Source of the DNA: Alteromonas sp. LMIT006
GTDB lineage: Bacteria; Pseudomonadota; Gammaproteobacteria; Enterobacterales; Alteromonadaceae
Assembly: GCF_024300645.1 (NCBI RefSeq)
Contig: NZ_CP101291.1
Span: 2,046,001 to 2,110,000, forward strand
Direction of reading: 5' to 3'
Length of the DNA stretch: 64,000 bases
The translations under genes and the position numbers were made by a program. Within the stretch, counting starts at the first letter, position 1, and every line of letters starts with the position of its first letter. This document shows positions 11,926 through 42,446 of the stretch, piece after piece. The notes below the pieces were generated by a model, which did not search any database, was not told where the DNA came from, and saw only the letters and a list, made by a program, of their open reading frames with translations.

Positions 11926-11953
11926 CAATAATCACCTCATTTTAGGGAACACA

Positions 11954-13258
11954 ATGATTAAAATTACCAAGCATCTTATCATCGGCCTCTCTTCATTTTG
12001 TTTGTTTCACTCTTTTGCCTTCGCTGACTCCATCAAAGTCCTGAAAGCGGATAAACTTATCTCGGTAAGGGATGGCAAGGTTTATCCAAAACCGGTAGTG
12101 ATTGTTACTGATAATGTGATCACGCAAGTAGGTCAACAAGGTGATATGAGCATCCCTTCTGACGCTACTGTGATTGATTTAAGTGGGCATACCTTAATGC
12201 CAGGTCTAATGGATATGCATGTTCATCTCACCTCTGATGCCAATATTCATGGTTATAAGCGCTTGCAACGCGATACCTCCCGTGCAGCCATTACTGGCGT
12301 CGTCAAAGCCAAGCGTACCTTGATGGCTGGTTTTACCACAGTGCGCAATGTGGGTGCACCAAACTATGCCGATGTAGCGTTGCGTAATGCCATCAACGAT
12401 GGTGATGTACTGGGCCCTCGAATGTTCGTCTCAGGTCCGTCGATCGGCGTCACTGGCGGTCATTGTGACAATAACTTATTGCCGTTCGAATACGATGTCA
12501 CTTCAGAAGGTGTGGCTGACGGTCCATGGGCGATGAGAGCAAAGGTCCGTCAAAATATCAAATACGGCGCCGATGTCATCAAGTTTTGCGCGACCGGCGG
12601 GGTGTTATCCAAAGGCACCAAAGTTGGCGCACAACAGCTTACCTTTGAAGAAATGAAGGCGTTGATTGACGAAGCACATCTACGCGGGCTGACTGTTGCA
12701 GCACATGCACACGGTACAGATGGGATCAAAACCGCCATTCAAGCTGGGGTGGACTCGGTTGAGCACAGTTCATTTTTGGATGAAGAAGCCATCGCCCTAG
12801 CAGTCAAACACGGTACTTACCTATCTATGGATATTTATGTGACAGAATATATCCTTGGCGAAGGTGAGAAAGCTGGTATTTTAGAAGAAAGTCTTGCCAA
12901 AGAAAGAACCGTAGGCAAACGTCAACGCGAAAGCTTTACCAACGCGTTGAAGGCAGGTGTAAAAATGGTTTTTGGGTCTGACGCTGGCGTATATCCACAT
13001 GGTGATAATGGCAAGCAATTTGCGCGAATGGTGCAATTTGGCATGACCCCGATGCAAGCCATTCAATCCGCAACGATAGCCCCTGCGACCTTAATCAACA
13101 AGGAAAGCACACTCGGCAGTATTGATGTCGGTAAAGTTGCTGATATTTTAGCCGTATCAAATGATGTTCTTAACGATATCAGCGTGTTAGAAAATATCCC
13201 ATTTGTCATGAAGGACGGCATTGTGGTCAAGGATCACATAGGAAACACGGTACAATAA
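11954..13258 (+). CDS. Exported metal-dependent amidohydrolase (prolidase/imidazolonepropionase-like)
   Basis: 434 residues with a signal peptide ending FAFADS. A complete amidohydrolase metal site is visible: MDMHVHL (His89, His91), a Lys in ADVIKFCATGG that is carboxylated in relatives, AAHAHG, SVEHSSF and the catalytic Asp in FGSDAGVYPHG. This pattern matches the subfamily of periplasmic Xaa-Pro dipeptidase-like and Arg/Lys carboxypeptidase-like amidohydrolases. The exact peptide substrate is not decidable from sequence. AGGGAA lies upstream of the ATG, and the gene follows lnt by 28 bases, so it may share its transcript or have its own promoter. Confidence 0.88.
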   Translation: MIKITKHLIIGLSSFCLFHSFAFADSIKVLKADKLISVRDGKVYPKPVVIVTDNVITQVGQQGDMSIPSDATVIDLSGHTLMPGLMDMHVHLTSDANIHGYKRLQRDTSRAAITGVVKAKRTLMAGFTTVRNVGAPNYADVALRNAINDGDVLGPRMFVSGPSIGVTGGHCDNNLLPFEYDVTSEGVADGPWAMRAKVRQNIKYGADVIKFCATGGVLSKGTKVGAQQLTFEEMKALIDEAHLRGLTVAAHAHGTDGIKTAIQAGVDSVEHSSFLDEEAIALAVKHGTYLSMDIYVTEYILGEGEKAGILEESLAKERTVGKRQRESFTNALKAGVKMVFGSDAGVYPHGDNGKQFARMVQFGMTPMQAIQSATIAPATLINKESTLGSIDVGKVADILAVSNDVLNDISVLENIPFVMKDGIVVKDHIGNTVQ

Positions 13259-28775: not shown

Positions 28776-31673
28776 ATGCTTTCTACGCCTTTTTTAGTTG
28801 TGGTTGTGCTATCGTTTTTTGCGATGATGGCAGCATTATTTTGGTTAACCCCTCGCCTTTCTATTCCAAACCGATTAAAAACTCCCATATTTAGCTTAAG
28901 TTTAGGCGTGCACTGTACTAGTTGGGCTATGCTTGGCACGGTAGCACAAGCTGCTCAGCACCAATGGGCCATATTCCCAACCTATTTAGGGATTATGTTT
29001 ACCATGATTCTGGGACACAGCATGGTACAAAAAGTATCTGTTCTTAGTGCACAAAGTAATAGTGCATCTTTAGCCGACTTTATGGCATCGCGTTGGCCCC
29101 ATGTTGGCTGGTATGGCACACTTGTCACATTACTGGCCTGCGTAACGGTTATCCCCTATATTGCATTACAGCTCATGGCGTTAACAAACATTGGCGAGTT
29201 ACTGCTTAATCGTTCACCGCAAAATCTTGGTCTATGGGTCACTGTATTGCTGATAATTAGCATCGGCTTATTAAGTTTTAGCCGAGGCAGCTTACTGCAG
29301 CAAGGACAAAGTATTTTATTACTCAGTGCGATTAGCTCAATTATTAAACTGACTGCTTTACTCAGTGTGTTAATGTTTATTAACTATGCTTTATTTGACA
29401 ACACATCAGACTTTGTCATTAACACCCTCACTACGGTTAAGCCTGTCAGCAATTCGGCGTGGATCAGCTATGCTAGCTATTGTCTACTTGGTTTATCTGT
29501 CGTATTTTGCTCGCCTCGTCAATTTCACATGGCATTTGTCTTAAATCGCGATAACCGTATTTTTGGTGAGGCACGCTGGCAGTTTAGTGCCTTTTTACTT
29601 GGTATGGGTTTGCCCATACTACCCATAGCGCTTGCTGGACAGTATCTTTTTAATGAACAGGTATTCAGTGCAGAACTCTACACGCTTGCTATCCCGTTGT
29701 TTAATGACGCAGCGTGGCTCAGTGCGCTGGTCGTATTAGGTGTTCTTGCTGCAGCGGTCCCCATGATATTGGTCGCAACCATTAGTTGCAGCGTCATGTT
29801 AGCAAACAATGTCGTTAGCCCTATTTGGGTCAAGCGCAATTTGAATCAAGTCAGCCCTTTAACGCATAAACGGGTATTAAATATACGTCGGATCACTATT
29901 GTTTCATTCTTAATTGCGGCTTATGTATTTTTCGAATACGTTGCACAATACACTGAACTGGTTTTTTCTGGTTTTGTAGCGCTAGCTTTGATTGCGCAGT
30001 TACTGCCAAGTTTTATCGCATCCCTTTATGTAAAACGCCCAAATGTTATTGCACTGAGTCTTGGCATTGCATCAGGGGTCACAGTGTGGATTGTGTATTT
30101 AAGTGGTTTTTTTGCGCTTGATGACGTGATTATTTCTTGGGTTGGGGTTGAGCAAGCCTTACCGATGACATTATTCATCAGTATTGGTCTCAATGCATTC
30201 ATCATTACTGCTTGCCAACACTATTTGCAAACTAAACTGCCTTTTTACAATGCTCATTCTGAAGAATTAAAATACTCAGAGCCAAGCAATGCCTCATTGA
30301 GTTTGTTAATGACCTTATGTGATGCGGTCTTACCCAAAGAAGAATATAAGGCAATACACAGCATCACCAAAACAGAATTACGCTTTGAAAAAGCGCGTAA
30401 CGCGCTCGTAAATCGGGTCGGCCTTGCCAGTACTAATATGCTCATAGACAATGCTCAGCAATACTCCGAGCAGCCTAATACACTGCTTAATTGGGTGCAG
30501 GAAACACAAGAGCTATCAGAAGCTAAGCGGATAGCGGAAGCGGAAAACAAAAGTAAAACGAGATTCTTAGCAGCTGCTGGGCATGATTTGATGCAGCCGT
30601 TCAATGCTGCCCAGTTACTCAGCAACATTTTGTATGACAAAACCAAAGATACGCCCCAGCACAAAATTGCTCATGACCTGCAAGATGCCCTCAAGCATGC
30701 AGGCACCTTACTTACGTCTTTACTAGATGTTACAAAGTTAGACTCAGGAGTAATGAAAGCACGCCCGAAACCCTTTCAATTGCACCCTACACTATTACCA
30801 TTGATCAGAGAATTTAGTGTCATTGCCAAAGCACAAAATGTTACCTTACATTATGTACAGAGCAATGTATGGCTTAAAACCGATCCTAATTTGTTTTTGC
30901 GGTGTTGCCAGAATTTAATTGCCAATGCGATTCGATATACTGCCATGAGCCACCCTACAGGTGGTGGCAAAATAGTTATCGGATGTAAACGCTATGCCAA
31001 TAAAGTTTATCTGCATGTCATTGATAATGGCCCAGGGATCCCTGCAGAACAACACAAAATGATTTTTGATGAATTCACGCAACTCGGGCAACACCGAGGA
31101 CAAGAAGGGCTTGGAATCGGCTTGACCATTGTAAAAGGGATATGTGAATTACTAAACATCAAGATTAAGGTCAAGTCTCAACCTCAGCGCGGAAGCCTGT
31201 TCGCGCTTGATTTACCCATAGTCAATCAGAGTAATGTCATCTCTACTGAGCCTGTCTCAATGAAGGAATCTCGCATTTTACAAAAACAGTTATTGTTGTG
31301 GTTAGTTGAAAATGATGACGCAGTTGGCAATGCAATGTTACGACTTGCTGAGCATTGGGGCATGGAAGCGAGGTGGTTCAAAAATCAAATTGAATTAAGC
31401 GATGCCATTCAAAGTGATGAGTATCCCGATGTCATGATATTGGATTATCATCTGCATGATGGCGAGCTTGGCACACGAGTCTGGGACAATGCCTGTGTTG
31501 AATGGCAAAATAGAGGTCGCATTGCTCCAGTCGGGATTTTAGCGACTGCGGATAGAAGCACTGAAGTAAGGGAAACCGCAAATGACTTAGGCTTAACTTA
31601 CCTGCCTAAGCCAATCAAGCCAGATGTTCTTAAACGGATCATCATCAACAAAACTACTCGCTCAGTGGCGTAG
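28776..31673 (+). CDS. SLC5-domain hybrid sensor histidine kinase (CrbS/MxtR-like)
   Basis: 965 residues. About residues 1-490 form twelve or so membrane helices of the sodium:solute symporter type (ADFMASRWPHVGW, TVIPYIALQLMALTNIG). A linker is followed by a HisKA domain with the phosphorylated His603 in AAAGHDLMQPFNA, an ATPase domain (NLIANAIRYT, DNGPGIP, GLGIGLTIV) and a C-terminal receiver with Asp890 in VMILDYHLHDGE. This architecture matches CrbS of Vibrio and MxtR of Pseudomonas, which control acetate use through a LuxR-type partner. A NarL-type regulator lies immediately convergent, overlapping its last 20 bases, and is the likely partner. Confidence 0.85.
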   Translation: MLSTPFLVVVVLSFFAMMAALFWLTPRLSIPNRLKTPIFSLSLGVHCTSWAMLGTVAQAAQHQWAIFPTYLGIMFTMILGHSMVQKVSVLSAQSNSASLADFMASRWPHVGWYGTLVTLLACVTVIPYIALQLMALTNIGELLLNRSPQNLGLWVTVLLIISIGLLSFSRGSLLQQGQSILLLSAISSIIKLTALLSVLMFINYALFDNTSDFVINTLTTVKPVSNSAWISYASYCLLGLSVVFCSPRQFHMAFVLNRDNRIFGEARWQFSAFLLGMGLPILPIALAGQYLFNEQVFSAELYTLAIPLFNDAAWLSALVVLGVLAAAVPMILVATISCSVMLANNVVSPIWVKRNLNQVSPLTHKRVLNIRRITIVSFLIAAYVFFEYVAQYTELVFSGFVALALIAQLLPSFIASLYVKRPNVIALSLGIASGVTVWIVYLSGFFALDDVIISWVGVEQALPMTLFISIGLNAFIITACQHYLQTKLPFYNAHSEELKYSEPSNASLSLLMTLCDAVLPKEEYKAIHSITKTELRFEKARNALVNRVGLASTNMLIDNAQQYSEQPNTLLNWVQETQELSEAKRIAEAENKSKTRFLAAAGHDLMQPFNAAQLLSNILYDKTKDTPQHKIAHDLQDALKHAGTLLTSLLDVTKLDSGVMKARPKPFQLHPTLLPLIREFSVIAKAQNVTLHYVQSNVWLKTDPNLFLRCCQNLIANAIRYTAMSHPTGGGKIVIGCKRYANKVYLHVIDNGPGIPAEQHKMIFDEFTQLGQHRGQEGLGIGLTIVKGICELLNIKIKVKSQPQRGSLFALDLPIVNQSNVISTEPVSMKESRILQKQLLLWLVENDDAVGNAMLRLAEHWGMEARWFKNQIELSDAIQSDEYPDVMILDYHLHDGELGTRVWDNACVEWQNRGRIAPVGILATADRSTEVRETANDLGLTYLPKPIKPDVLKRIIINKTTRSVA

Positions 31674-32325
31674 CAGATGCAATATCTAGGTACTGCCGAT
31701 AGATTACCCCAGCTTGGGTGCGATTGATTAATGAGAGTTTTTTGAGTACCGCTGAAGCATGCTGTTTAACGGTAGACTCTGAAATCTCCATTGTGTAAGC
31801 AATTTGTTTATTCAGAAGGCCTTCTGCCATATATTGCAATACTTTGAGTTGATGTGGCGTAAGCGACTGCAATTTTTGAATAAATTCGTCATCCAGTTCA
31901 TCTTCATCACTATCAATCGGATACCAATTATTACCCGTCAAAATGTGTTTTACTGCATCCTTTAATTGTTCTAGCTGGGTGGATTTGGGAATAAAACCAC
32001 TCGCACCTAGCTTTTTGGCTTTGTTAATAATGTGGGGATCTTCATGTGCAGAAATCATAATGACTTGCTTTTCTGGAAACTCATTTAATATGGTCACTAG
32101 ACCATCCAACCCATGAACGTCAGGCATCGCAAGATCTAAAAAAATCATATCCACCAGCGGATTCTCTCTTAATACAGTCAAGGTAGAAGCAAAATCTTCG
32201 GCCTCTAAAATAAGTTCATGAGTCAATTCTGATAATGCATATTTTAGGGCATTGCGAAACAATGGATGATCATCCACCAGCAAGAAGTGATGTGACATGA
32301 ATGAAGTAGTTGATGAAAAAGACAT
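31654..32325 (-). CDS. NarL/LuxR-family response regulator (CrbR/ErdR-like)
   Basis: 223 residues: receiver domain with acidic pair VDDHP, phospho-acceptor Asp64 in IFLDLAMPDVHG and Lys in FIPKSTQ, an acidic linker (DSDEDELDDEF), then a LuxR-type helix-turn-helix (LTPHQLKVLQYMAEGLLNKQ). ATG 32325 has AAGGGA about nine bases upstream; a second ATG at 32298, starting at MSHHFLLVDDHP, lacks one. It overlaps the 3' end of the hybrid kinase in convergent orientation. Pairing with that kinase, and control of acetyl-CoA synthetase, is inferred by analogy to CrbSR; no acs gene is in the window. Confidence 0.85.
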   Translation of the reverse strand: MSFSSTTSFMSHHFLLVDDHPLFRNALKYALSELTHELILEAEDFASTLTVLRENPLVDMIFLDLAMPDVHGLDGLVTILNEFPEKQVIMISAHEDPHIINKAKKLGASGFIPKSTQLEQLKDAVKHILTGNNWYPIDSDEDELDDEFIQKLQSLTPHQLKVLQYMAEGLLNKQIAYTMEISESTVKQHASAVLKKLSLINRTQAGVIYRQYLDIASATPLSE

Positions 32326-32452: not shown

Positions 32453-34786
32453 TTAAAAACGATACCCTGCCGTGAGGTGAACGGTCGCAGGTGCCCCATA
32501 ATATCCGATTAAGGTGTTATCGCCACCTAGACCCGGAGTGTATAGGTCACGGTTAGATGGATCGCTTGGGTCTGGGGCTACGAATTGATAACCACCGACT
32601 AAGTATTCTTCGTCCGTGATATTTTTAAAATGCAATCCAGCGTACCAATTGCCATCATCATGCTGCCAATTGATGGATAAATTCAGTAAGCCATATCCAT
32701 CCTGTACTAATAAATTATCTAGCTCTGTGATGCCGTATTCAGAGCGATAATAGTAGTTACCATTGACACTGAATTCACCCATTGAGGATGGAATAAAGTA
32801 GGTAAAACCAAGATTGATGGTACGTTCTGGCGTATTCGATACTTCAAAGCGATCTGCAATGTTATTAAAGCCCCCGTTACCATCCGCTTCTAACACTTCG
32901 TCAAACTCTGCGTCGATTAAACCAATCGCAGCGGTCAAGGTTAAATCATCCGTGGCTTGGTAAGTAATTTCGGCTTCTACACCAGTTGCTGATGATTTAC
33001 CCACGTTCCCCAACACTTGAGCCAGTTCTGACGCATCTTCAGTAGGCAGGACGGATACATATTGACGGTCTTTGTGGTCGAGATCAAAGATTGTGATATT
33101 GGCTCGTAAGTTATCATTCCACTCACTCTTCATACCCAATTCGATTGAGTCGACAATCTCTGGATTAACGGCGTCTTCGTTGGCACTCGCACGAGGATTA
33201 AACGTGCCCGATTTAAAACCCTGTGAATAGTTCGCATAAAACATGACATCTTCAGCATACTGATATTCAATACTGACACTTGGCGTAAAGCGGGACCAGC
33301 TTTCAGATTTTGGTGCGTCTAAAACACCATCACCATCGGTATCGTCACCTAATACTCTTGGCACGATTTCGCCATCGAATGTTGCTGCTGGACGCGTATA
33401 TCCAGGTACCCAGTTATTATAAGGGTATGCACCGTCAAAAATAAGCCCGTTGTGAACAAAGGCTGATTTTTCTTCGTCTGTATAGCGTGCACCGACTGCC
33501 ATAGACACTTTGTCGGATACGGCAAAATTCGCTTGGGTGTAAACTGCCCAACTATCAGAGTTATTGCACCCTGTGACCTCACGCGTTAACCCTGGAGTAG
33601 AAAACGCAGCTCGCCCTAAAACATTCAGTATCGCATCAAAGTTGCCGCACGATTCACCCTCATACGCATACAAACCACCTACAACGGTGTAATCATCCTG
33701 CGAGTATGAGAACTGTAATTCGTGTGAATCGGATTCATCAAAGTACTCTGCTGGCACATCAAAGATATCTAGTGGTGTGTTGTCAAAGTCGATATTAGTG
33801 GGTGAATAGCCTTCTCGATGAGCCATAATGTATTTAATGCTCATAGCGTCACTAAGGTCATGGCGAATGGTTAGACTATGCCCTTCTAGCTCGACTTTGT
33901 TCCATGTCGGCAATGAAGTATATGAGTCATAAACGCTATCAGGCACCGGCGCATTAGTGAGTAAACTTGGCAATAAACGATAGCCGCCTTTGGCATTCGA
34001 GTCATCATCGGTTTTGTCATAGCTTAAGCGAATAAACCAATCGTCTGCTGGGGTGAGTTCCACATCAAAACGCATCGCGGTAAGATCTTTGTTGTAGTTT
34101 TCTCGGTCTTGGTTATCTAACGCAGATTCTAAAAATTCACCGTAGCCATCGCGATTGAGTGCGGCATAACCAAAGCCAAAATACAGTTTATCTTCTATGA
34201 TTGGCAATTGACCGGTTAATTTAATGTCTCGTTGCGAATAACTCCCTGCGGTGACTTCTGCAGTAAAGCTGGGGTCACCGCTCATTTCTTTAGTGACGTA
34301 TTTCACCGCACCGCCAATCGTATTTTTGCCATATAAGGTCCCTTGCGGCCCTCTAAGCACCTCAATACGCGATATATCTAGCAAGTCCAAAACGGCACCT
34401 TGTGGGCGGGCCATGTAAACATCATTGACATAGATGCCGACACCTGGTTCATAGCCCCACAATGGATCCTCTTGACCAACCCCTCGGATAAACGCGGTTA
34501 GCGTTGAATTGGTACCGCGACTCGTTTGCAAGGTGGTATTGGGTGAAAATTGTTGTACTTCAGTAATCACTTCAATGCCTTTTGCAGCAAGTGCATCGGC
34601 ACCAAGACTGGTAATTGACACTGGTACTTCTTGCAGTGATTCGACGGTTTTACGGGCAGTCACTTCGATGCGTTCTAGTTTACTTTCATCATCCTGCGCA
34701 AAAGCAGAAGGCTGTATACTGGCACATAAAGCGAGTGCAATTGACGTACTTATAACGGATTTTTTATAGCTTGTTTTAGTTTCCAT
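32453..34786 (-). CDS. TonB-dependent outer-membrane receptor
   Basis: 777 residues from ATG 34786, which begins a signal peptide (METKTSYKKSVISTSIALAL...); upstream in-frame starts (34798, 34930) have no ribosome site. A TonB-box-like LERIEVTARK is followed by the plug domain (SLQEVPVSITSLGADAL, VLRGPQGTLYGKNTIGGAVKYVT), then a 22-strand barrel ending in the typical aromatic residue (HLTAGYRF). The ligand is unknown. It is divergent, across 194 bases, from the putative PHB-utilisation operon, so uptake of a 3-hydroxybutyrate oligomer or another released compound is possible but speculative; an iron-siderophore role is the main alternative. Confidence 0.9.
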   Translation of the reverse strand: METKTSYKKSVISTSIALALCASIQPSAFAQDDESKLERIEVTARKTVESLQEVPVSITSLGADALAAKGIEVITEVQQFSPNTTLQTSRGTNSTLTAFIRGVGQEDPLWGYEPGVGIYVNDVYMARPQGAVLDLLDISRIEVLRGPQGTLYGKNTIGGAVKYVTKEMSGDPSFTAEVTAGSYSQRDIKLTGQLPIIEDKLYFGFGYAALNRDGYGEFLESALDNQDRENYNKDLTAMRFDVELTPADDWFIRLSYDKTDDDSNAKGGYRLLPSLLTNAPVPDSVYDSYTSLPTWNKVELEGHSLTIRHDLSDAMSIKYIMAHREGYSPTNIDFDNTPLDIFDVPAEYFDESDSHELQFSYSQDDYTVVGGLYAYEGESCGNFDAILNVLGRAAFSTPGLTREVTGCNNSDSWAVYTQANFAVSDKVSMAVGARYTDEEKSAFVHNGLIFDGAYPYNNWVPGYTRPAATFDGEIVPRVLGDDTDGDGVLDAPKSESWSRFTPSVSIEYQYAEDVMFYANYSQGFKSGTFNPRASANEDAVNPEIVDSIELGMKSEWNDNLRANITIFDLDHKDRQYVSVLPTEDASELAQVLGNVGKSSATGVEAEITYQATDDLTLTAAIGLIDAEFDEVLEADGNGGFNNIADRFEVSNTPERTINLGFTYFIPSSMGEFSVNGNYYYRSEYGITELDNLLVQDGYGLLNLSINWQHDDGNWYAGLHFKNITDEEYLVGGYQFVAPDPSDPSNRDLYTPGLGGDNTLIGYYGAPATVHLTAGYRF

Positions 34787-34980
34787 GTCACTACCCATGT
34801 AAATAAGTTGTTTTGTAAGTGTGAAATATCTTTCGTAGACAAGCTTACTTCGACTTTTGAAAAAAATCGCTAGCACGATAGTACTATAGGCTTTTACAGT
34901 GAAATACATCACTATTTGTAAAATTCGCAATCTTCTTTGCGTAACATAAAAATAACAACTCAGTAAAAAATGGAGTCGCT

Positions 34981-36276
34981 ATGCTAAGTATTTTTGGCTT
35001 GCTAGGTGGATTGGCGTTATTAATTTTTCTAACCATTCGAGGCATGAATCTATTTATCGCTGCACCCTTGTGTGCGGTATTCGTCGCATTGTGCAATGGC
35101 ATTGCCGTATTCACGGGTGAGGCAAATTTTGTCACCATGTATATGTCTGGCTTTACCAGCTTCGTTGGCGCTTGGTTCTTTATGTTTTTACTTGGGGCAC
35201 TGTTTGGTAAATTCATGGAAGATACTGGAGCCGCTGACGCCCTAGCGCAATGGATTGTGACCAAACTGGGGTTTCAACACGCTGTGTTGGCCATAGTCAG
35301 TGCCTGCGCTATTCTGACCTATGGCGGCGTTTCTCTTTTTGTCGTTGCGTTCTCGGTTTATCCAATGGCCTTAAGCCTATTTAAAGACGCTAACTTACCA
35401 CGTCGCTTTATTCCAGCTACATTAGCATTTGGCTCGGTTACATTCACCATGACGTCAGCTGGCAGCCCAGAGATCCAAAACTGGATCCCCATCCCCTACC
35501 TTGGCACCTCTGCCTTTGCTGCGTGGGAAGTCAGCTTAGTGGTTGCGATATTTATGGCGCTGTTTGGTTATTGGTGGCTCAAACGAATGATTGGTAAAGC
35601 CGTCGCTGCAGGAGAAGGCTTTGTCGCGCGTGATGACGACCCGCAAGTCACCCAGCGCAAATTGCCCAATCCAATAACGGGTATCATACCCATCATAGTA
35701 GTATTAGTGCTGTCTTTTATCTTCCATGAAACGTATGGAAAGATGGCTCTGATTGTCGCGCTAGGCGGTGGTGTATTAACACTTTTGGCAATCAATTATC
35801 GCTATTTTATCAGCATCTCAAAAGCTATAAACCTAGGTACTACTGGCGCACTTGTTGCTATTGGCAATACCGCAGCAGTTGTTGGTTTTGGTGCAGTTGC
35901 CAAAAATACCCAGGCGTTTTCCGATACCGTGGCAATCATGACTAATTTACCCGGCAACGAATTAATCGGGGCCGCGGTCGCCGTCAGTGTGATTGCAGGC
36001 TTAACCGGATCTGCATCCGGTGGACAAGCGATTGCACTCCCCTTGCTGGCCCCACATTATCTTGAGCAAGATGTTGACCCAGAAGAGCTGCATCGCATTG
36101 TCGCCATTTCCTCAGGGGCGTTGGATTCCTTGCCGCACAACGGATATGTGGTCACCTTAATCCGAGCCATCTGTGGTGAAAACCACGCCAATGCTTATCT
36201 GCCTTTAGGGGCATTAACCGTGATAGTACCATTGCTTGGTGTGATCATGGCGATTGCGTTATTCAGTATCTTTTAA
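34981..36276 (+). CDS. GntP-family permease, putative 3-hydroxybutyrate transporter
   Basis: 431 residues, around twelve membrane helices. ALFGKFMEDTGAADALAQWI, TYGGVSLFVVAFSVYPMAL and TGSASGGQAIALPLL are typical of GntP-type organic-acid permeases. GGAG lies six bases before the ATG. It is the first gene of a tight group that ends with 3-hydroxybutyrate dehydrogenase, so 3-hydroxybutyrate is a more likely substrate than gluconate (inference from context). No gluconate kinase is near. Confidence 0.85.
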   Translation: MLSIFGLLGGLALLIFLTIRGMNLFIAAPLCAVFVALCNGIAVFTGEANFVTMYMSGFTSFVGAWFFMFLLGALFGKFMEDTGAADALAQWIVTKLGFQHAVLAIVSACAILTYGGVSLFVVAFSVYPMALSLFKDANLPRRFIPATLAFGSVTFTMTSAGSPEIQNWIPIPYLGTSAFAAWEVSLVVAIFMALFGYWWLKRMIGKAVAAGEGFVARDDDPQVTQRKLPNPITGIIPIIVVLVLSFIFHETYGKMALIVALGGGVLTLLAINYRYFISISKAINLGTTGALVAIGNTAAVVGFGAVAKNTQAFSDTVAIMTNLPGNELIGAAVAVSVIAGLTGSASGGQAIALPLLAPHYLEQDVDPEELHRIVAISSGALDSLPHNGYVVTLIRAICGENHANAYLPLGALTVIVPLLGVIMAIALFSIF

Positions 36277-36292
36277 GATAAGGAGCACGTGT

Positions 36293-37507
36293 ATGTTGAT
36301 GCGAATTATCCTTTTTATCATTATTGGGCTGTATATGTTTAATACCGAAGTCACTCTTGCTCAAGCACAGACATTCAGCAAAGAGAAACGCGAATTTTCG
36401 ATGCCGTCGCTGACGTTTTTTAACGGTCAAACCATTTCTGACGTTCGGGTTGGTTGGGAAGCCTATGGATCGCTTAACGAAGCAAAAGACAATGCCATCC
36501 TCATCACTCACTATTTTACCGGTAATTCACACGCTGCAGGACAGTACGAAGAAGATGGCGAGCCTGGCTATTGGGACGTAATAATTGGTCCGGGTAAGGC
36601 GATAGATACCGATATTTACTATGTCATTGCAGTGGACACACTAGCAAACCTTGGGGTTCACGACCCATATGTGATTACAACTGGTCCTGCAAGTATCAAT
36701 CCTAAGACCAATAAACCTTATGGCTTATCATTTCCAGTGATCACTATGCGCGACCAAGTAAATGTCCAAAAAGCATTGATTGAGTCGTTAGGTATTACCA
36801 AACTACATGCTGTGATCGGTGCATCAATGGGATCGATGCAAGCCCTTGAATGGGCCAGCGCATATCCAGAAATGGTGCCAAGAGTCGCAGCTGTGATTGG
36901 TTCTGCTCATTCTGATGCATGGACAACGACCGCGCTAGAACATTGGAGCATGCCAATCAAGTTAGATGCCAACTGGAATAATGGGGATTACTACGACAAC
37001 AAACCACCCATTGCGGGTCTTACCGCTGCATTAATGGCCATCACACAAACCGCGCTTCATCCTGATTACATGAATTTGATTGGCACACAACTCGGTCATT
37101 TTCCTCTAGAAGAGGCTCCTTTAATGAACATTACCTCAGACCATGCGATTACCACTTGGCTCAAACAAAGAGCGGCTGAACGTGCTGAGGTAATGGATGC
37201 TAACCATTTGCTGTATCTGGTTAGAGCATGTCAGTTGTATATGGCTGGACAAAAAGACTCTCTTAAAGAGGGGTTAACAGCCCTTAATGCCAAAGTATTG
37301 TTGATGCCTGCCAGTAATGACTTGTTATTAATGCCCTATCATCTAGAATTAATGCATCAAGCATTGACTGACATGGGCAAATCATCAGAACTAATTTATT
37401 TGGATGGGGATTTTGGACACCTGAACGGGTTAGCCACCATCGCACAAGCAAACGATGCTTTGCAAGAATTTTTAAAAAGTTCACCAACGGATAATCACAA
37501 TGACTAA
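36293..37507 (+). CDS. Exported MetX-like alpha/beta hydrolase
   Basis: 404 residues of the homoserine O-acetyltransferase (MetX) fold. The nucleophile elbow is GASMGSMQALEW; the Asp and His candidates lie in ASNDLLLMP and GDFGHLNGL. Start ATG 36293 has AAGGAG seven bases upstream and begins a hydrophobic signal sequence (MLMRIILFIIIGLYMF...), whereas true MetX enzymes are cytoplasmic. It sits between a permease and a PHB depolymerase (16 bases after one, overlapping the next by eight). A role as a periplasmic esterase acting on hydroxybutyrate oligomers is therefore proposed. No methionine-pathway gene is nearby. Confidence 0.72.
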   Translation: MLMRIILFIIIGLYMFNTEVTLAQAQTFSKEKREFSMPSLTFFNGQTISDVRVGWEAYGSLNEAKDNAILITHYFTGNSHAAGQYEEDGEPGYWDVIIGPGKAIDTDIYYVIAVDTLANLGVHDPYVITTGPASINPKTNKPYGLSFPVITMRDQVNVQKALIESLGITKLHAVIGASMGSMQALEWASAYPEMVPRVAAVIGSAHSDAWTTTALEHWSMPIKLDANWNNGDYYDNKPPIAGLTAALMAITQTALHPDYMNLIGTQLGHFPLEEAPLMNITSDHAITTWLKQRAAERAEVMDANHLLYLVRACQLYMAGQKDSLKEGLTALNAKVLLMPASNDLLLMPYHLELMHQALTDMGKSSELIYLDGDFGHLNGLATIAQANDALQEFLKSSPTDNHND

Positions 37508-38525
37508 ACGGACTCTAATGCTTGTCAGTTTTTTAAGCTTTTTGGCTCGTGCAGAAGCTCCCCTAGAACAATTAAATTTGCACACCGAACAGGTGACTAT
37601 TTCAGGTTTATCTTCTGGAGCTTACATGGCCGGTCAGTACCATCTTGCTCATGCTGAACACGTGTCTGGTGTCGCTATGCTTGCTGGTGGCCCCTATTAT
37701 TGTGCCCAAGGTAATCTCGGCCAAGCCATGGCGGCCTGTTTGCACAAAGAAGATGCTCCGATTCAGTTAGATGCGATAAATCGCACAATTGAAGATTATC
37801 AATCTCGAGGCTTACTAGCTTCGGATAGTGCAATAAAAGATTCAAAAGTTTGGATTTTTCATGGTGATAACGACGAAACCGTTGGACGTCATGTGGCGGA
37901 ACATCTTGTCAGGCAATACCAGCAATGGTTTAAGCAAGATAATATGACAGTGATATTTGATGACGAAGCCAGCCATCATTTTCCAACGGTGAGCGAAGGA
38001 CATGCGTGTGATATCTCTGTTTCTCCATTTATAGGGGCTTGCCAATTCGATGCCGCAGGTGCACTTTTAAATGCCACTGCGGGCCAACTCAATGCCCCTA
38101 GTACTTCAGAGCAAGGTAAAGTGTACTCAATTAAGCAGCATAAGCTCGGTGGAGATTCAGCCAAAAGTATTGCTAAAAATGGTTATGTATATATTCCCGA
38201 TGTGTGTTTGGATGGCGAACCATGTTCCTTGCACGTGAGTTTCCATGGCTGTAAACAGAATGCCAAAACCATCGGCATGCAATACATCGAAGATACCGGC
38301 CTTAACCGCTGGGCGGATACCAATCGTATGGTTGTTCTGTATCCACAAACTAAAAACTCTCTTGCCCTACCGTTTAACCCTTATGGTTGTTGGGATTGGT
38401 GGGGCTATACCGATTATCAATATGCAACACGTGAAGGCCAACAGATTAAGGCGATACACACTATGATCCAAGCTTTGGGTGCTCTGGGTAAATCCAGTGC
38501 CATGAGCCAACGCAGTGTTGACTAA
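37500..38525 (+). CDS. Extracellular short-chain PHA (PHB) depolymerase, catalytic domain type 2
   Basis: 341 residues with an N-terminal signal-like segment (MTKRTLMLVSFLSFLARAEA). The alpha/beta-hydrolase nucleophile is in ISGLSSGAYMAGQ; the Asp is in FHGDNDETVG and the His in EASHHFPTVSEGHACD. C-terminal PYGCWDWWGYTDYQYA is a family hallmark. Several Cys pairs suggest disulfides outside the cytoplasm. There is no separate polymer-binding domain, so the enzyme may act on amorphous polymer or oligomers. It hydrolyses poly(3-hydroxybutyrate); the dehydrogenase gene follows by 18 bases. Confidence 0.84.
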   Translation: MTKRTLMLVSFLSFLARAEAPLEQLNLHTEQVTISGLSSGAYMAGQYHLAHAEHVSGVAMLAGGPYYCAQGNLGQAMAACLHKEDAPIQLDAINRTIEDYQSRGLLASDSAIKDSKVWIFHGDNDETVGRHVAEHLVRQYQQWFKQDNMTVIFDDEASHHFPTVSEGHACDISVSPFIGACQFDAAGALLNATAGQLNAPSTSEQGKVYSIKQHKLGGDSAKSIAKNGYVYIPDVCLDGEPCSLHVSFHGCKQNAKTIGMQYIEDTGLNRWADTNRMVVLYPQTKNSLALPFNPYGCWDWWGYTDYQYATREGQQIKAIHTMIQALGALGKSSAMSQRSVD

Positions 38526-38543
38526 TTTTAGGAATGTAAGTTT

Positions 38544-39317
38544 ATGACCCCTCAACAAAAAACTCTTTTTATCACCGGTGGAGCCAGTGGCATCGGTTAT
38601 GCAATGGCTGAATATTTTTGCGCTCAAGGGCACACCATCATCATTGCAGATATCAATCTTGAAGCCGCGCAAGTAGCGGCTAATAAATTAAGTGACTCAG
38701 GCTATCATGCCCACCCGATTAGACTAGACGTTGGTAGTTTAGAAGATATTGCGAGCTTACCAGAGAGAATGGGTGACGTTAAAGTCGATGTCTTAGTGAA
38801 CAACGCTGGCATTCAACATGTCTCTCGCATTGAGGATTTTCCACCTGAAAAATGGCAATTACTCATCAATATAATGCTCGTAGGACCCGCTATGCTCACC
38901 CAAACGTTTTTACCTGGGATGCGAGAGCGTAATTATGGCCGTATTATCAATGTGGGTTCCATCCACTCTCTTGTTGCCTCCCCATTTAAGTCCGCTTATA
39001 TTGCAGCAAAACACGGGCTAATTGGTTTGGCAAAAACCGTCGCATTAGAGAATGGCGATAAAAACATTACCATCAACACGCTTTGCCCTGCTTACGTTAA
39101 GACGCCATTAGTAGAAGCTCAAATTGCCAAGCAAGCAATTGAAAATGGGATCTCAGAGGAAGATGTCGTGAATAAAATCATGCTCGAACCCATGCCCAAA
39201 AAAGCCTTTATCGAGCCATTAGAACTGGCGCAAACCGCTGAATTTTTGATGTCTAATGCTGCCAAAAACATGACCGCGCAAACCTTAGTCCTCGATGGGG
39301 GTTGGGTTGCACGCTAA
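38544..39317 (+). CDS. bdhA: 3-hydroxybutyrate dehydrogenase (short-chain dehydrogenase)
   Basis: 257 residues of the classical short-chain dehydrogenase fold: TGGASGIG cofactor loop, NNAGIQHVSRIEDFPPEKW, the catalytic Ser in VGSIHSLVAS and YIAAK (Tyr-x-x-x-Lys). NNAGIQHV with IEDFPxEKW is characteristic of D-3-hydroxybutyrate dehydrogenase, which oxidises 3-hydroxybutyrate to acetoacetate with NAD. It ends a four-gene group (permease, hydrolase, depolymerase, dehydrogenase) that forms a coherent pathway from PHB to acetoacetate. Confidence 0.9.
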   Translation: MTPQQKTLFITGGASGIGYAMAEYFCAQGHTIIIADINLEAAQVAANKLSDSGYHAHPIRLDVGSLEDIASLPERMGDVKVDVLVNNAGIQHVSRIEDFPPEKWQLLINIMLVGPAMLTQTFLPGMRERNYGRIINVGSIHSLVASPFKSAYIAAKHGLIGLAKTVALENGDKNITINTLCPAYVKTPLVEAQIAKQAIENGISEEDVVNKIMLEPMPKKAFIEPLELAQTAEFLMSNAAKNMTAQTLVLDGGWVAR

Positions 39318-39361: not shown

Positions 39362-40237
39362 ATGGCCTACTCAACTGTCGGAATATTAGGGAAACCCCAA
39401 CACGAAGCCACTTATCAAAGTGTGCTTGGCCTAATTGATTATCTGCAAGAAAAACAATGCACAGTTTTAGTCGAAGAACGCCTGCATAAAGAACTCATTG
39501 GTACTGATTTACCGGCAGCGAATTTGGTCGAAATTGGCCAAGCTGCTGATTTAGCAATTGTGGTCGGTGGCGACGGAAATATGCTCGGTGCTGCGCGCGT
39601 GCTTGCTCGATACGATATTCATGTGGTGGGTGTTAACCGAGGCAACTTGGGTTTTTTAACCGACATTAACCCCGACAATATTGTGGCCGATTTGGATGAT
39701 ATATTTGCCGGTAACGGTATTGTTGAGGAGCGATTTTTACTCGAAGTGGATGTGCGCCGTCACGACTCGTTAAAATCAACAAATGTTGCGGTAAATGAAG
39801 TCGTACTGCATCACGCCAAAGTCGCGCACATGATGGAGTTTGAGGTCTATATGAACGATAATTTCATGTTCACGCAGCGGTCAGATGGCTTAATTGTCGC
39901 CACTCCTACTGGCTCCACAGCGTATTCATTATCAGGCGGAGGCCCCATAATGATGCCATCACTGAATGCCCTCACCTTAGTGCCAATGTTCCCTCACACC
40001 TTAACCAGCCGCCCTATCGTTGTTGATGCAGATAATACCGTGAAATTGATTATTTCGCGTGAGAATACCGATGATTGCCAAGTCAGTTGTGACAGTCAGG
40101 TGGGCTTGAGTATCATGCCTGGAGACGAAGTCATTATTCGCAAGTTCCCTTCTCCACTGAGAATCGTTCATCCATCTAGTTACGATTACTTTAATGTATT
40201 ACGCTCCAAGCTCAATTGGGGCAGTAAACTTTTTTAA
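39362..40237 (+). CDS. nadK: NAD kinase
   Basis: Phosphorylates NAD to NADP with ATP. 291 residues, usual length. The catalytic GGDGNMLGAARVL is near residue 63 and GVNRGNLGFLTDI follows; the conserved NEVVLHH and DGLIVATPTGSTAYSLSGGGPI segments are intact. It lies directly upstream of recN, in the widespread nadK-recN order. Confidence 0.97.
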   Translation: MAYSTVGILGKPQHEATYQSVLGLIDYLQEKQCTVLVEERLHKELIGTDLPAANLVEIGQAADLAIVVGGDGNMLGAARVLARYDIHVVGVNRGNLGFLTDINPDNIVADLDDIFAGNGIVEERFLLEVDVRRHDSLKSTNVAVNEVVLHHAKVAHMMEFEVYMNDNFMFTQRSDGLIVATPTGSTAYSLSGGGPIMMPSLNALTLVPMFPHTLTSRPIVVDADNTVKLIISRENTDDCQVSCDSQVGLSIMPGDEVIIRKFPSPLRIVHPSSYDYFNVLRSKLNWGSKLF

Positions 40238-40263
40238 GCGAAAAAGCAAAACTGATCTTGATA

Positions 40264-40309
40264 CTGTATAAAATACTGTATATATTTACTGAATTGTATA
40301 TTTAACCAG
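40264..40309 (+). promoter_or_regulatory. Tandem LexA (SOS) box-like sites before recN
   Basis: The consensus CTG-N10-CAG is nearly matched twice: CTGTATATATTTACTG (40276-40291) and TTGTATATTTAACCAG (40294-40309), each with one off-consensus base in the conserved triplets. A further half-site begins at 40264 (CTGTATAAAATACTGT). E. coli recN also has multiple SOS boxes. The last box ends 20 bases before the recN ATG. Confidence 0.7.
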
Positions 40310-40329
40310 TACTTTAGGTTGTTTAAGCT

Positions 40330-42009
40330 ATGTTAACTGCACTCTCAATTGAAAACTTTGCTATTGTGCGCAACGTCTCTGTACAGTTCAAAGGAGGCTT
40401 ATCTGTCATCACGGGTGAAACAGGTGCGGGTAAGTCAATTGCCATTGATGGATTAAGTTTGTGTTTGGGTGCGCGAGCCGATGCGTCTTCTGTTCGCAAA
40501 GGAGCTGATAAAGCGCAACTCAATGCCTGGTTTGACTTATCTGACTTACCCAAAGTTGCCCAATGGTTATCTGAACATGAAATGCTCGATGATGAGCAGA
40601 CAAATCACTGCCATATCCGTCGTGTCATTTCTGCTGAAGGTCGTTCTAAAGCTTTTATTAATGGCGTTTCCGTTACATTAAGCCAACTTAAACTACTCAG
40701 TCAGCAACTATTAGCTATTCATGGGCAGCATGCACATCATTACCTTTTGAAACCTGAAGCACAGCTTGAGTTAATAGATAAATATGCCGAACACACTGAA
40801 CTCTTGAATGAAGTAGCACGTGCTCATCAGCATTACCACACCTTGCAACAACAACTTAATCAACTGCAAAAAGCACAACAACAACGCGCTGACCGACGTC
40901 AACTCCTTAGCTATCAAGTTCAAGAATTGAATGATTTTTCCCTCCAAGAAGATGAGTTTACTGAGCTAGAAATTGAGTACAAGCGCCTTAGCAACGCCCA
41001 AGATCTACTTGAAAACGCGCAAAAAGCGTCGTATCGAATCAGTGAAGATGAGCAAGCCAATGCCGTTCGCATGGTACGTAAGTCAATCCAAGAGTTATCT
41101 GAGCAAGTTGATAACGACCCTGCCCTTACTGATATCATTACCTGTTTAGCAGAGGCCGAAATTAACCTGAATGAAGCAGCTTCGCAACTGAATGAATATT
41201 GTTCTGACTTAGAGCTTGACCCGATGCGTATGCAGCAAGTTGAGAATCGATTCAATCAGGCGATGGAACTTGCACGTAAACACGCTGTGATGCCAGAGAG
41301 CCTTTTCTGCCATCATCAAATTCTCAAGCAAGAATATGAATCCTTACAAGGCGATGAGGAGTCTATACAAGGTATCCAAACAGAATTAAACGAAGCTAGA
41401 AATGCGTACACTGCTGCCAGTAGCAGGTTGAGTAATTCACGGCACAAACACGGTGAAGCATTAGCACAAGCAATTGTTCAGAGCGTATCCAAAATGAATA
41501 TGCCACACACACAAATGCAATTCACAGTGCAACACAATCCACAAGGCCCCTTTACCTCACTTGGCCAGGACGAGGTGCAAATTATGATCACAACGAACCC
41601 TGGACAACCTATGGGACCGATTGATGAGATAGTTTCTGGCGGTGAATTATCAAGAATTGGACTTGCTATACAGGTAATTACTTCAGATCAAAATCAGATC
41701 CCTACACTCATTTTTGACGAAGTAGACACAGGTATCAGTGGCCCAACTGCGTCTGTGATTGGACAGTTATTGCGCAGTTTAGGTCAAACTACGCAAGTTC
41801 TGTGTGTCACCCATTTACCACAAGTGGCTGCCCAAGGCCATCAGCAATTGTTTGTAAATAAGCTCACCGATGGACACAGTACAGAGACAACAATGCGTGA
41901 ACTCTCGCCTGAACAACGTTCACGTGAACTTGCACGACTATTGGCGGGAGATGAAATCACTGAGACTGCCCTAGCAAATGCTAACGAATTATTAAAAAAT
42001 GTCAGCTGA
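40330..42009 (+). CDS. recN: DNA repair protein RecN
   Basis: An SMC-like ATPase for double-strand break repair. 559 residues: Walker A GETGAGKSIAIDG near the N terminus, a long coiled-coil middle (Gln/Glu/Leu-rich, about residues 150-380), then the signature SGGELSRIGLA and Walker B TLIFDEVDTGISGPTA. The LexA-type boxes upstream fit SOS induction. It is transcribed separately from nadK, 92 bases downstream. Confidence 0.97.
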   Translation: MLTALSIENFAIVRNVSVQFKGGLSVITGETGAGKSIAIDGLSLCLGARADASSVRKGADKAQLNAWFDLSDLPKVAQWLSEHEMLDDEQTNHCHIRRVISAEGRSKAFINGVSVTLSQLKLLSQQLLAIHGQHAHHYLLKPEAQLELIDKYAEHTELLNEVARAHQHYHTLQQQLNQLQKAQQQRADRRQLLSYQVQELNDFSLQEDEFTELEIEYKRLSNAQDLLENAQKASYRISEDEQANAVRMVRKSIQELSEQVDNDPALTDIITCLAEAEINLNEAASQLNEYCSDLELDPMRMQQVENRFNQAMELARKHAVMPESLFCHHQILKQEYESLQGDEESIQGIQTELNEARNAYTAASSRLSNSRHKHGEALAQAIVQSVSKMNMPHTQMQFTVQHNPQGPFTSLGQDEVQIMITTNPGQPMGPIDEIVSGGELSRIGLAIQVITSDQNQIPTLIFDEVDTGISGPTASVIGQLLRSLGQTTQVLCVTHLPQVAAQGHQQLFVNKLTDGHSTETTMRELSPEQRSRELARLLAGDEITETALANANELLKNVS

Positions 42010-42080
42010 ACTTCTTATTGGTTGCAAGGTCTTATGCGCTAGGTTAGCATTTACGCATTGATTGAATTAAAAAGATAACT

Positions 42081-42446
42081 ATGCAAGTAATTAAGCAAAC
42101 ATTGGCTGTCGTCATATTAGTGATGAGTTTTTCTTCGTTAAGTGGCTGCTCAAACTGGATCTATCGCATTGACATACCGCAAGGCAACTACTTAGACAAA
42201 CGAGATGTTGAGAAACTACGTGTTCAAATGACTAAAGAACAAGTGGAATTTGTTTTGGGCAAGCCAGTTATCAACGATTTGTTCAATCAGGACACTTGGT
42301 ATTATGTTTACGAAATCAAACGTGGCATGAAAGGATTTGGCGAAGATTTACGTAAAGAGCTGGTGTTGCGTTTCGAGGATAACAAACTTATTTCTGTTGC
42401 TGGTGACTTTGAAGTCTCTGAAGACTTTGATACACCGTTGAGTTAA
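42081..42446 (+). CDS. bamE: Outer membrane protein assembly factor BamE (lipoprotein)
   Basis: 121 residues. A signal peptide with lipobox LSGC places the mature N-terminal Cys at about residue 23. The SmpA/OmlA domain follows: IPQGNYLDKRDVEKLRVQMTKEQVEFVLGKP and WYYVYEIKRG are the family motifs. It is part of the BAM complex that inserts beta-barrel proteins into the outer membrane. The recN-bamE neighbourhood is common in gammaproteobacteria. Confidence 0.95.
   Translation: MQVIKQTLAVVILVMSFSSLSGCSNWIYRIDIPQGNYLDKRDVEKLRVQMTKEQVEFVLGKPVINDLFNQDTWYYVYEIKRGMKGFGEDLRKELVLRFEDNKLISVAGDFEVSEDFDTPLS

Follow-up and report, generated by a model that had tools for sequence, protein, structure and literature searches.

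Gene content of the locus

In a 64,000-nucleotide stretch of DNA from Alteromonas sp. LMIT006 (contig NZ_CP101291.1, positions 2,046,001–2,110,000; hereafter the window), part of a 2.53-Mb single-contig genome (G000), we analysed a block of genes predicted to serve the use of polyhydroxybutyrate (PHB). Four open reading frames (ORFs) on the + strand encode a GntP-like permease (34981–36276), an exported MetX-like alpha/beta hydrolase of the E22 family (36293–37507; NF005262), an exported single-domain type 2 PHB depolymerase (37500–38525; NF050059) and a 3-hydroxybutyrate (3HB) dehydrogenase (38544–39317; TIGR01963). The original prediction had placed these four genes on one strand with small gaps or an overlap, and all four are present as described: the permease and esterase genes lie 16 bp apart, the esterase gene, which starts at the ATG at 36293, overlaps the depolymerase gene by 8 bp, and 18 bp separate the latter from the dehydrogenase gene.

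Divergent from the permease gene is that of a TonB-dependent outer-membrane receptor (32453–34798, − strand; Pfam Plug and TonB_dep_Rec), a proposed importer of 3HB oligomers, whose ORF opens upstream at 34930 and whose start was picked by its signal sequence. Beyond it lie the genes for a LuxR-type response regulator resembling ErdR/CrbR (31654–32325, − strand; Response_reg and GerE) and for a hybrid histidine kinase with an N-terminal SLC5/APC-fold transporter domain (28776–31673, + strand; HATPase_c and HisKA), a CrbS-like paralogue. A putative palindromic operator, CTAGCACGATAGTACTAT (34870–34887, no strand assigned), was located by a matrix hit between receptor and permease. The earlier picture of a compact four-gene locus therefore holds for the spacing of the genes but not for the extent of the unit: because the receptor, regulator, kinase and palindrome are conserved beside the four genes, outside the interval first delimited, the four are not self-contained.

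Predicted functions of the four structural genes

The depolymerase scores 360.9 bits against a cut-off of 280 for NF050059 (type 2 extracellular short-chain-length polyhydroxyalkanoate (PHA) depolymerase), and its residues 23–319 align with PDB entries 2d80 and 2d81 (E values of 2e-49 and 6e-49), which we take to be the PHB depolymerase of Penicillium funiculosum. Residues S39, D125 and H159, presumably the catalytic triad, are invariant in 16 aligned sequences and align to 2d80 in the same order. The window protein shares with the Penicillium enzyme its family model, single-domain length and Ser/Asp/His positions; it differs in being bacterial, in lying within a receptor/sensor locus and in that its activity on PHB is predicted from family membership.

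The esterase exceeds the cut-off of NF005262 (560.6 versus 450 bits), carries GASMG, SNDLL and GHLNG motifs and is homologous over nearly its full length to the MetX-like esterase E22 (PDB 5jkf; E = 4e-151). What sets it apart from E22 is its tie to PHB genes, by linkage and by the operator described below, and its proposed role as a 3HB-oligomer hydrolase. A homoserine O-acetyltransferase (MetX) was considered and rejected, with scores of 269 versus a cut-off of 331 (NF001209) and 249 versus 500 (TIGR01392). The N termini of both esterase and depolymerase look like Sec-type signal sequences, judged, as were all signal sequences here, by eye and without a predictor.

The dehydrogenase passes TIGR01963 (327.6 versus 307.05 bits) and has 3HB dehydrogenases as its best PDB matches. 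The permease belongs to the GntP family only marginally (PF02447, GntP_permease; 22.8 versus 22.5 bits in Pfam); a gluconate transporter was rejected, as the best gluconate model gave 33.5 against a cut-off of 647, and we propose that it imports 3HB or short oligomers. Gene pairs of a GntP permease and a 3HB dehydrogenase occur in Pseudomonas and Bacillus; the window has the same pairing and adds secreted enzymes, a receptor and an SLC5-type kinase. The route from PHB through 3HB to acetoacetate, as originally proposed, is well supported by the family models together with the conservation and co-occurrence described next.

A larger unit is conserved across the family

We compared 147 genomes of the same family, an even sample of a larger set. 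Strong type 2 depolymerase matches occur in 55 of them, counted apart from seven genomes with weak matches, and all 55 also encode the esterase and the permease; Fisher tests of the depolymerase–esterase and depolymerase–permease co-occurrence, which ignore relatedness, gave P values of about 4e-22 and 2e-18. These counts exclude a weak E22 match in G073 (29% identity), a receptor match of 39% identity in G133, secondary receptor copies and GntP matches of at most 40% identity. The receptor is found in 54 of the 55, the exception being G090, in which the contig ends at the permease. Comparing the block across genomes had been suggested as a check, and it revealed linkage far beyond chance: in 46 of the 55 genomes, no more than 4.5 kb separate depolymerase and permease. 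In 44, the receptor is linked to both as well, and in most loci inspected the regulator stands beside the receptor, so that receptor, secreted depolymerase, permease and dedicated regulator are kept together in the manner of a polymer utilization locus.

A similar arrangement emerged from 80 named depolymerase loci, the best of at least 571 confirmed matches, some of them on cut contigs. Both permease and receptor lie near the depolymerase in 48, which also have nearby an esterase (39 loci), a dehydrogenase (40), a regulator (39) and a kinase (32); a further four have the receptor without the permease. Typically, the genes run kinase>, <regulator, <receptor, permease>, esterase>, depolymerase>, dehydrogenase>, and the regulator is conserved beside the receptor in most loci inspected. 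In a metagenome-assembled genome of Glaciecola sp. (L055), the block is present at 93–99% protein identity. In nine contigs from Xanthomonadales or Steroidobacteraceae (L104, L113, L114, L116, L124–L126, L130 and L134), parts of the same kinds are arranged differently, as <permease, receptor>, depolymerase>; seven of the nine have a kinase match nearby.

The receptor is more widely kept than the type 2 depolymerase (103 versus 55 of the 147 genomes). With seven candidates scored per genome, each of the 103 has one dominant match at 47–72% identity; further copies at E ≤ 1e-60 are 31–41% identical, apart from one of 52% in G039. In a midpoint-rooted tree of 105 receptor-like sequences, reduced from 109 matches, 90 with at least 42% identity form one clade without intruders (support 0.868), which takes in the second G039 copy. 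An ordinary siderophore receptor is not favoured, given a TIGR01783 score of 162.9 against a cut-off of 223.5.

The same receptor adjoins type 1 depolymerases

In 28 of the 103 receptor genomes, the receptor lies away from the permease. We inspected the surroundings of all 28, together with two paralogous receptor copies (L161–L190). Type 1 depolymerases, counted only when above the NF050058 cut-off, occur in 45 of the 147 genomes and in none of the controls; at an E value of 0.001, the broad type 1 fold family matches 147 of 147 genomes and 13 of 14 controls. A type 1 depolymerase lies within 5 kb of the receptor in 26 of the 28 permease-unlinked genomes and within 350 bp in 22. In these 22, the gene is directly upstream of the receptor on the same strand, at 38–237 bp by ORF ends; the encoded proteins are mutually similar, with about 305–353 amino acids, and 12 of 12 scanned singly pass NF050058. 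The seven weak type 2 matches fall among these 22 and are therefore not separate evidence. The other four (L164, L182, L186 and L187) have the type 1 enzyme 4.2–4.6 kb away and a receptor divergent from a 3HB-dehydrogenase homologue, one of which was scanned and passes TIGR01963 (313.6). The 28 are completed by G005 (L185), whose receptor stands apart from its block, and by G136 (L189), at a contig edge. Type 1 enzymes also occur in 14 of the 55 type 2 genomes.

Some of these loci differ further in their enzymes and permeases. In L166, a permease of the major facilitator superfamily (MFS) and an esterase of the hormone-sensitive lipase (HSL) type without an evident signal sequence lie beyond the kinase. 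All three esterases scanned (L166, L163 and L171) had LipP1-like scores, of 252–264 against a cut-off of 350, and GDSAG and HGGG motifs were present in six of six HSL-like esterases translated. The MFS identity of the permease slot is confirmed only in L166; the corresponding proteins of L163 and L171 had no NCBIfam match at E ≤ 1e-60. MFS permeases and HSL-type esterases would thus be unrelated families filling the permease and hydrolase slots. Separately, a second set of type 1 matches lies in longer frames, many of about 626–834 amino acids (for example, G062:C1:433853, G037:C6:1582077 and G082:C1:4872623), and these are possibly multidomain enzymes.

A putative palindromic operator marks the unit

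Palindromic expectation maximization (EM) on receptor/permease intergenic regions found de novo the palindrome TAGTAC-N4-GTACTA (TAGTACcATgGTACTA at width 18). Training used 74 divergent intergenic regions, 62 after removal of near-duplicates, with 150 restarts for the real set and 80 for shuffles; the EM score was 608, compared with 38.7–47.4 in five Markov shuffles. All 62 training regions carry a site of at least 10 bits, which is an in-sample count. The site at 34870–34887, 93 bp before the permease, is the only one in the window of at least 7 bits and the sole site in the genome within one mismatch of the pattern TAGTACNATNGTACTA. Elsewhere in the genome, two weak sites resembling the operator (177071 and 1938668) have no clear 3HB-related neighbour and are probably due to chance, because the reversed control gives 11 sites at the same stringency.

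At loci outside the training set, sites of at least 10 bits occur in 22 of 29 receptor promoters, compared with 26 of 367 other ORFs (Fisher P of about 4e-17, ignoring relatedness; sites between divergent genes were counted for both). The paralogous receptors L188 and L190 are among the seven promoters below 10 bits. Sites at other ORFs are found mainly at genes for 3HB-dehydrogenase-like proteins, kinases, depolymerases, acyl-CoA ligases and proteins in the MFS position. Three of four dehydrogenase-like proteins encoded at or near operators (L161, L169, L179 and L185) pass TIGR01963 and the fourth falls 0.5 bit short. The operator also precedes four of four unlinked esterase genes examined (12.6–20.0 bits); the start of another such gene, in G107, coincides with a contig edge. 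Exact matches to TAGTACNATNGTACTA in 60 genomes number seven, and all seven lie between receptor and permease. Many block operators are more than one base away from this pattern, so that a pattern search misses them.

Two operons of another composition carry the operator. In L185 (1861–5415), a site of 21.7 bits precedes genes for an AMP-forming acyl-CoA ligase, a thiolase and a 3HB dehydrogenase, and in L161 (16445–18919), a site of 19.0 bits precedes an AMP-forming acyl-CoA ligase followed by a 3HB dehydrogenase; both operons are likely further regulon members. Scans for sigma-70 promoters and terminators returned about as many sites as in shuffled sequence.

The sensor kinase and regulator are paralogues of an acs-linked pair

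Because Pfam gave no transporter domain in the kinase N terminus, we turned to fold prediction. The model of residues 1–450 has a mean predicted local distance difference test score of 85.6, and its best PDB matches in Foldseek are SLC5 transporters, including SGLT2, NIS, DUR3, CHT1 and SMCT1. At 965 amino acids (978 in L059), the window kinase is short, and no PAS domain was found in it; PAS_7 was detected in three longer homologues scanned.

A second SLC5-type kinase and LuxR-type regulator adjoin acs elsewhere in the genome (TIGR02188; 992 versus a cut-off of 725), and the block pair is therefore paralogous to them; that the block kinase and regulator are the acs-linked pair itself was rejected on the same ground. 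Pieces of the block kinase N terminus are 31% and 33% identical to the acs-adjoining kinase. The best NCBIfam model of the block regulator is ErdR, at 188 bits against a cut-off of 390; the acs-adjoining regulator reaches 211 bits. As both fall below it, the cut-off does not separate the two regulators. The coding sequence of the acs-adjoining kinase is broken into two ORFs, of 264 and 886 amino acids, that overlap in different frames (L191:7366–10810; G000:C1, about 252.4–255.8 kb), through either a frameshift or a sequencing error.

No copy of the block palindrome occurs in the acs promoter, where the matrix score peaks at −3.3. Upstream of acs (L191, start 13416, − strand) lies a palindrome-like sequence, ATAGACCAAAGTCCTAT, with GAC/GTC half-sites, which by eye is nearer than the block operator to the published ACTU matches in the portion of PMC5715377 available to us. 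Judging from these half-sites, the paralogous regulators may read TAC/GTA at the block and GAC/GTC at acs, a possible divergence of operators. The block pair thus resembles CrbS/CrbR (MxtR/ErdR) in its SLC5-domain hybrid kinase, its LuxR-type regulator and a palindromic target of similar layout, and differs in its TAC/GTA half-sites, in its shorter kinase with no PAS domain found and in not being linked to acs. According to the accessible part of PMC9100948, CrbS/R and CbrA/B were the only SLC5/STAC kinase systems characterized experimentally before that study's own RpuS/R, and hydroxybutyrate does not occur in that part.

Genomic context of the block

Downstream of the block, at 39362–42446, lie genes that we take to encode NAD kinase, RecN and a BamE-like protein. 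They sit 3′ of the block here and in many relatives, apparently as a frozen neighbourhood outside the pathway.

A probable regulated locus for extracellular PHB, and rival readings

We consider it probable, at roughly 0.7, that the block is a regulated, TonB-dependent 'polyester utilization locus' that serves the use of PHB and its oligomers from outside the cell and has a sensor and an operator to itself; its substrate and regulation are inferred. The secreted depolymerase, judging from its family, would cut PHB into 3HB oligomers and monomer, and the receptor, given its linkage, would actively import the oligomers into the periplasm. The exported E22 esterase would split these to 3HB and the GntP-like permease would import the 3HB, from which the dehydrogenase, by family assignment, should form acetoacetate; a CoA-transferase pair encoded elsewhere in the genome could then pass this to central metabolism. 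The SLC5-type kinase is proposed to sense 3HB or a related short acid; its LuxR-type regulator would then act on the palindrome that separates the receptor and permease genes and switch on both divergent units, the pairing of regulator and palindrome being itself putative.

Several observations weigh against this reading. The depolymerase is without the C-terminal substrate-binding domain usual in bacterial PHB depolymerases, its catalytic domain ending at residue 326 of 341; the 318-residue 2d80 chain aligns almost whole, so that enzyme is likewise single-domain. 3HB itself could pass porins. The depolymerase is distant from the permease in nine of the 55 genomes, and in 28 of the 80 named loci neither receptor nor permease is nearby, some of these contigs being short. 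The Xanthomonad and steroidobacterial receptors are only 27–38% identical to that of the window and are thus alike in kind, without a claim of orthology. The sensor half of the kinase is 28–38% identical among 19 relatives. An operator of at least 10 bits precedes only six of 17 unlinked depolymerases. Allowing up to one mismatch to TAGTACNATNGTACTA in the 60 genomes gave 22 sites compared with 29 for the reversed control, so that only the exact matches and their position are specific; of the 15 one-mismatch sites, three lie at the block (G000, G149 and G004) and one at the L185 ligase operon, and no block gene was found at the other 11, of which eight were inspected. Finally, 22 genomes have a linked receptor and permease without a type 2 depolymerase, and 20 of these, all but G042 and G081, also lack a type 1 enzyme above the cut-off.

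The last point bears on what the unit is for. With receptor and permease kept in genomes without either type of depolymerase, the unit may be for other esters or for oligomers that are scavenged. That receptor, permease, E22 esterase and regulators form a core for another ester or hydroxyacid oligomer, with the depolymerase an accessory in some lineages, would fit these 22 and 20 genomes, and also L137, a block lacking the type 2 depolymerase, in which an AMP-forming acyl-CoA ligase gene (10652–12325) separates permease from esterase, possibly as an alternative to the dehydrogenase route. To our knowledge, no natural substrate has been described for E22 enzymes. We nevertheless regard this reading as unlikely, because the receptor pairs with type 1 PHB depolymerases as well, the dehydrogenases of the two depolymerase-less blocks scanned (L136 and L139) both pass TIGR01963, and the operator precedes 3HB-dehydrogenase-like genes or operons, in which three of the four proteins scanned pass that model and the fourth narrowly misses it. 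We prefer the alternative that the depolymerase-less carriers, in which both types of enzyme were searched for, scavenge oligomers. The type 1 search cuts both ways, yielding more links to depolymerases and making the depolymerase-less carriers firmer. The four-gene proposal, in which the four structural genes suffice and porins carry the fragments across the outer membrane, with the receptor and two-component genes alongside as incidental neighbours, draws on the tight spacing of the four and on L052, which has depolymerase, esterase and permease without an adjoining receptor. It seems distinctly improbable to us: the L052 genome has the receptor elsewhere, with an operator site of 10.5 bits, the receptor is present in 54 of the 55 depolymerase genomes and linked in 44, in 26 genomes that receptor has an unrelated type 1 depolymerase no more than 5 kb away, and receptor and enzyme genes have the operator in common.

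The source of the polymer and the signal have rivals of their own. The original prediction had noted that no phaC gene is in the window and had concluded that external polymer is the likely substrate. phaC is indeed absent from the 64-kb window, but the genome has a full-length copy as a 617-amino-acid ORF at G000:C1:359727, which rules out that argument. Recycling of storage PHB, from the cell itself or from kin, would accord with this gene and with the higher frequency of phaC in type 2 depolymerase genomes (12 of 55) than in the others (8 of 92; 20 of 147 overall), yet depolymerase and esterase carry export signals and 43 of the 55 show no phaC, and we consider such recycling very unlikely. 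External polymer is still likelier, on account of the export signals and of phaC being present in only 12 of the 55, and, for such loci generally, is a reasonable choice of substrate. As to regulation, the kinase and regulator might answer acetate as CrbS/R does, giving general short-acid control instead of a 3HB signal. They have the same SLC5-kinase architecture and a LuxR-type partner, and the palindrome is similar to CrbR's ACTU motif as given in the portion of PMC5715377 consulted; against this, a separate pair already adjoins acs, and the acs promoter, at −3.3, lacks the block palindrome. We treat acetate control as a tentative possibility, and favour a 3HB-related signal to the locus.

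Relation to known systems

TonB-dependent polymer utilization loci, such as those of the Xanthomonas carbohydrate receptors in the part of PMC1790865 consulted, offer a parallel in depolymerase, receptor, exported hydrolase, permease and sensor logic. The present locus differs in that a polyester, not a sugar polymer, would be the substrate, and no SusD-type partner was noticed among the block genes, which were looked over without a model search. The titles and abstract openings of the open-licence literature gave no link between TonB receptors and PHB use, a partial view that makes this weak evidence. The open-licence literature likewise yielded nothing on the outer-membrane passage of PHB fragments or the inducing signal of secreted depolymerases, and nothing usable on E22 or on GntP with 3HB; the terms TonB, outer membrane and permease do not occur in the main text of a review of PHA biodegradation (PMC11893044), nor TonB, permease and transporter in PMC7830162.

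The block is also carried by genomes labelled Aliiglaciecola lipolytica E3 (L058), of a species that we take to be the former Glaciecola lipolytica, and by Aestuariibacter halophilus (L063), there without the esterase. In the part of PMC5877338 available, isolates from films of poly(3-hydroxybutyrate-co-3-hydroxyhexanoate) (PHBH) with more than 99% 16S identity to G. lipolytica and more than 97% to A. halophilus degraded PHBH, and Glaciecola- and Colwellia-type bacteria were dominant on some PHBH films in seawater.

A proposed conserved chassis for PHB use

A stronger finding than the four genes is that receptor, sensor and operator appear to form a conserved chassis for PHB use with interchangeable enzymes. 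Extended to Gammaproteobacteria, this would mean TonB-powered uptake of polyester oligomers in which one receptor family, one SLC5-kinase/LuxR pair responsive to 3HB-type acids and one palindromic operator are constant, and in which type 1 or type 2 depolymerases, exported E22 or apparently cytoplasmic HSL-like hydrolases, and GntP or MFS permeases are slotted in independently; we give this extension even odds. If it is true, the depolymerase-less versions, in 20 of the sampled genomes, would scavenge oligomers that others release. With a named receptor, sensor and operator, the locus makes the uptake of PHB fragments directly testable. Receptor and operator persist across exchanges of the enzyme and may therefore help to mark PHB users in marine genomes, though some of the carriers are without a recognized depolymerase.

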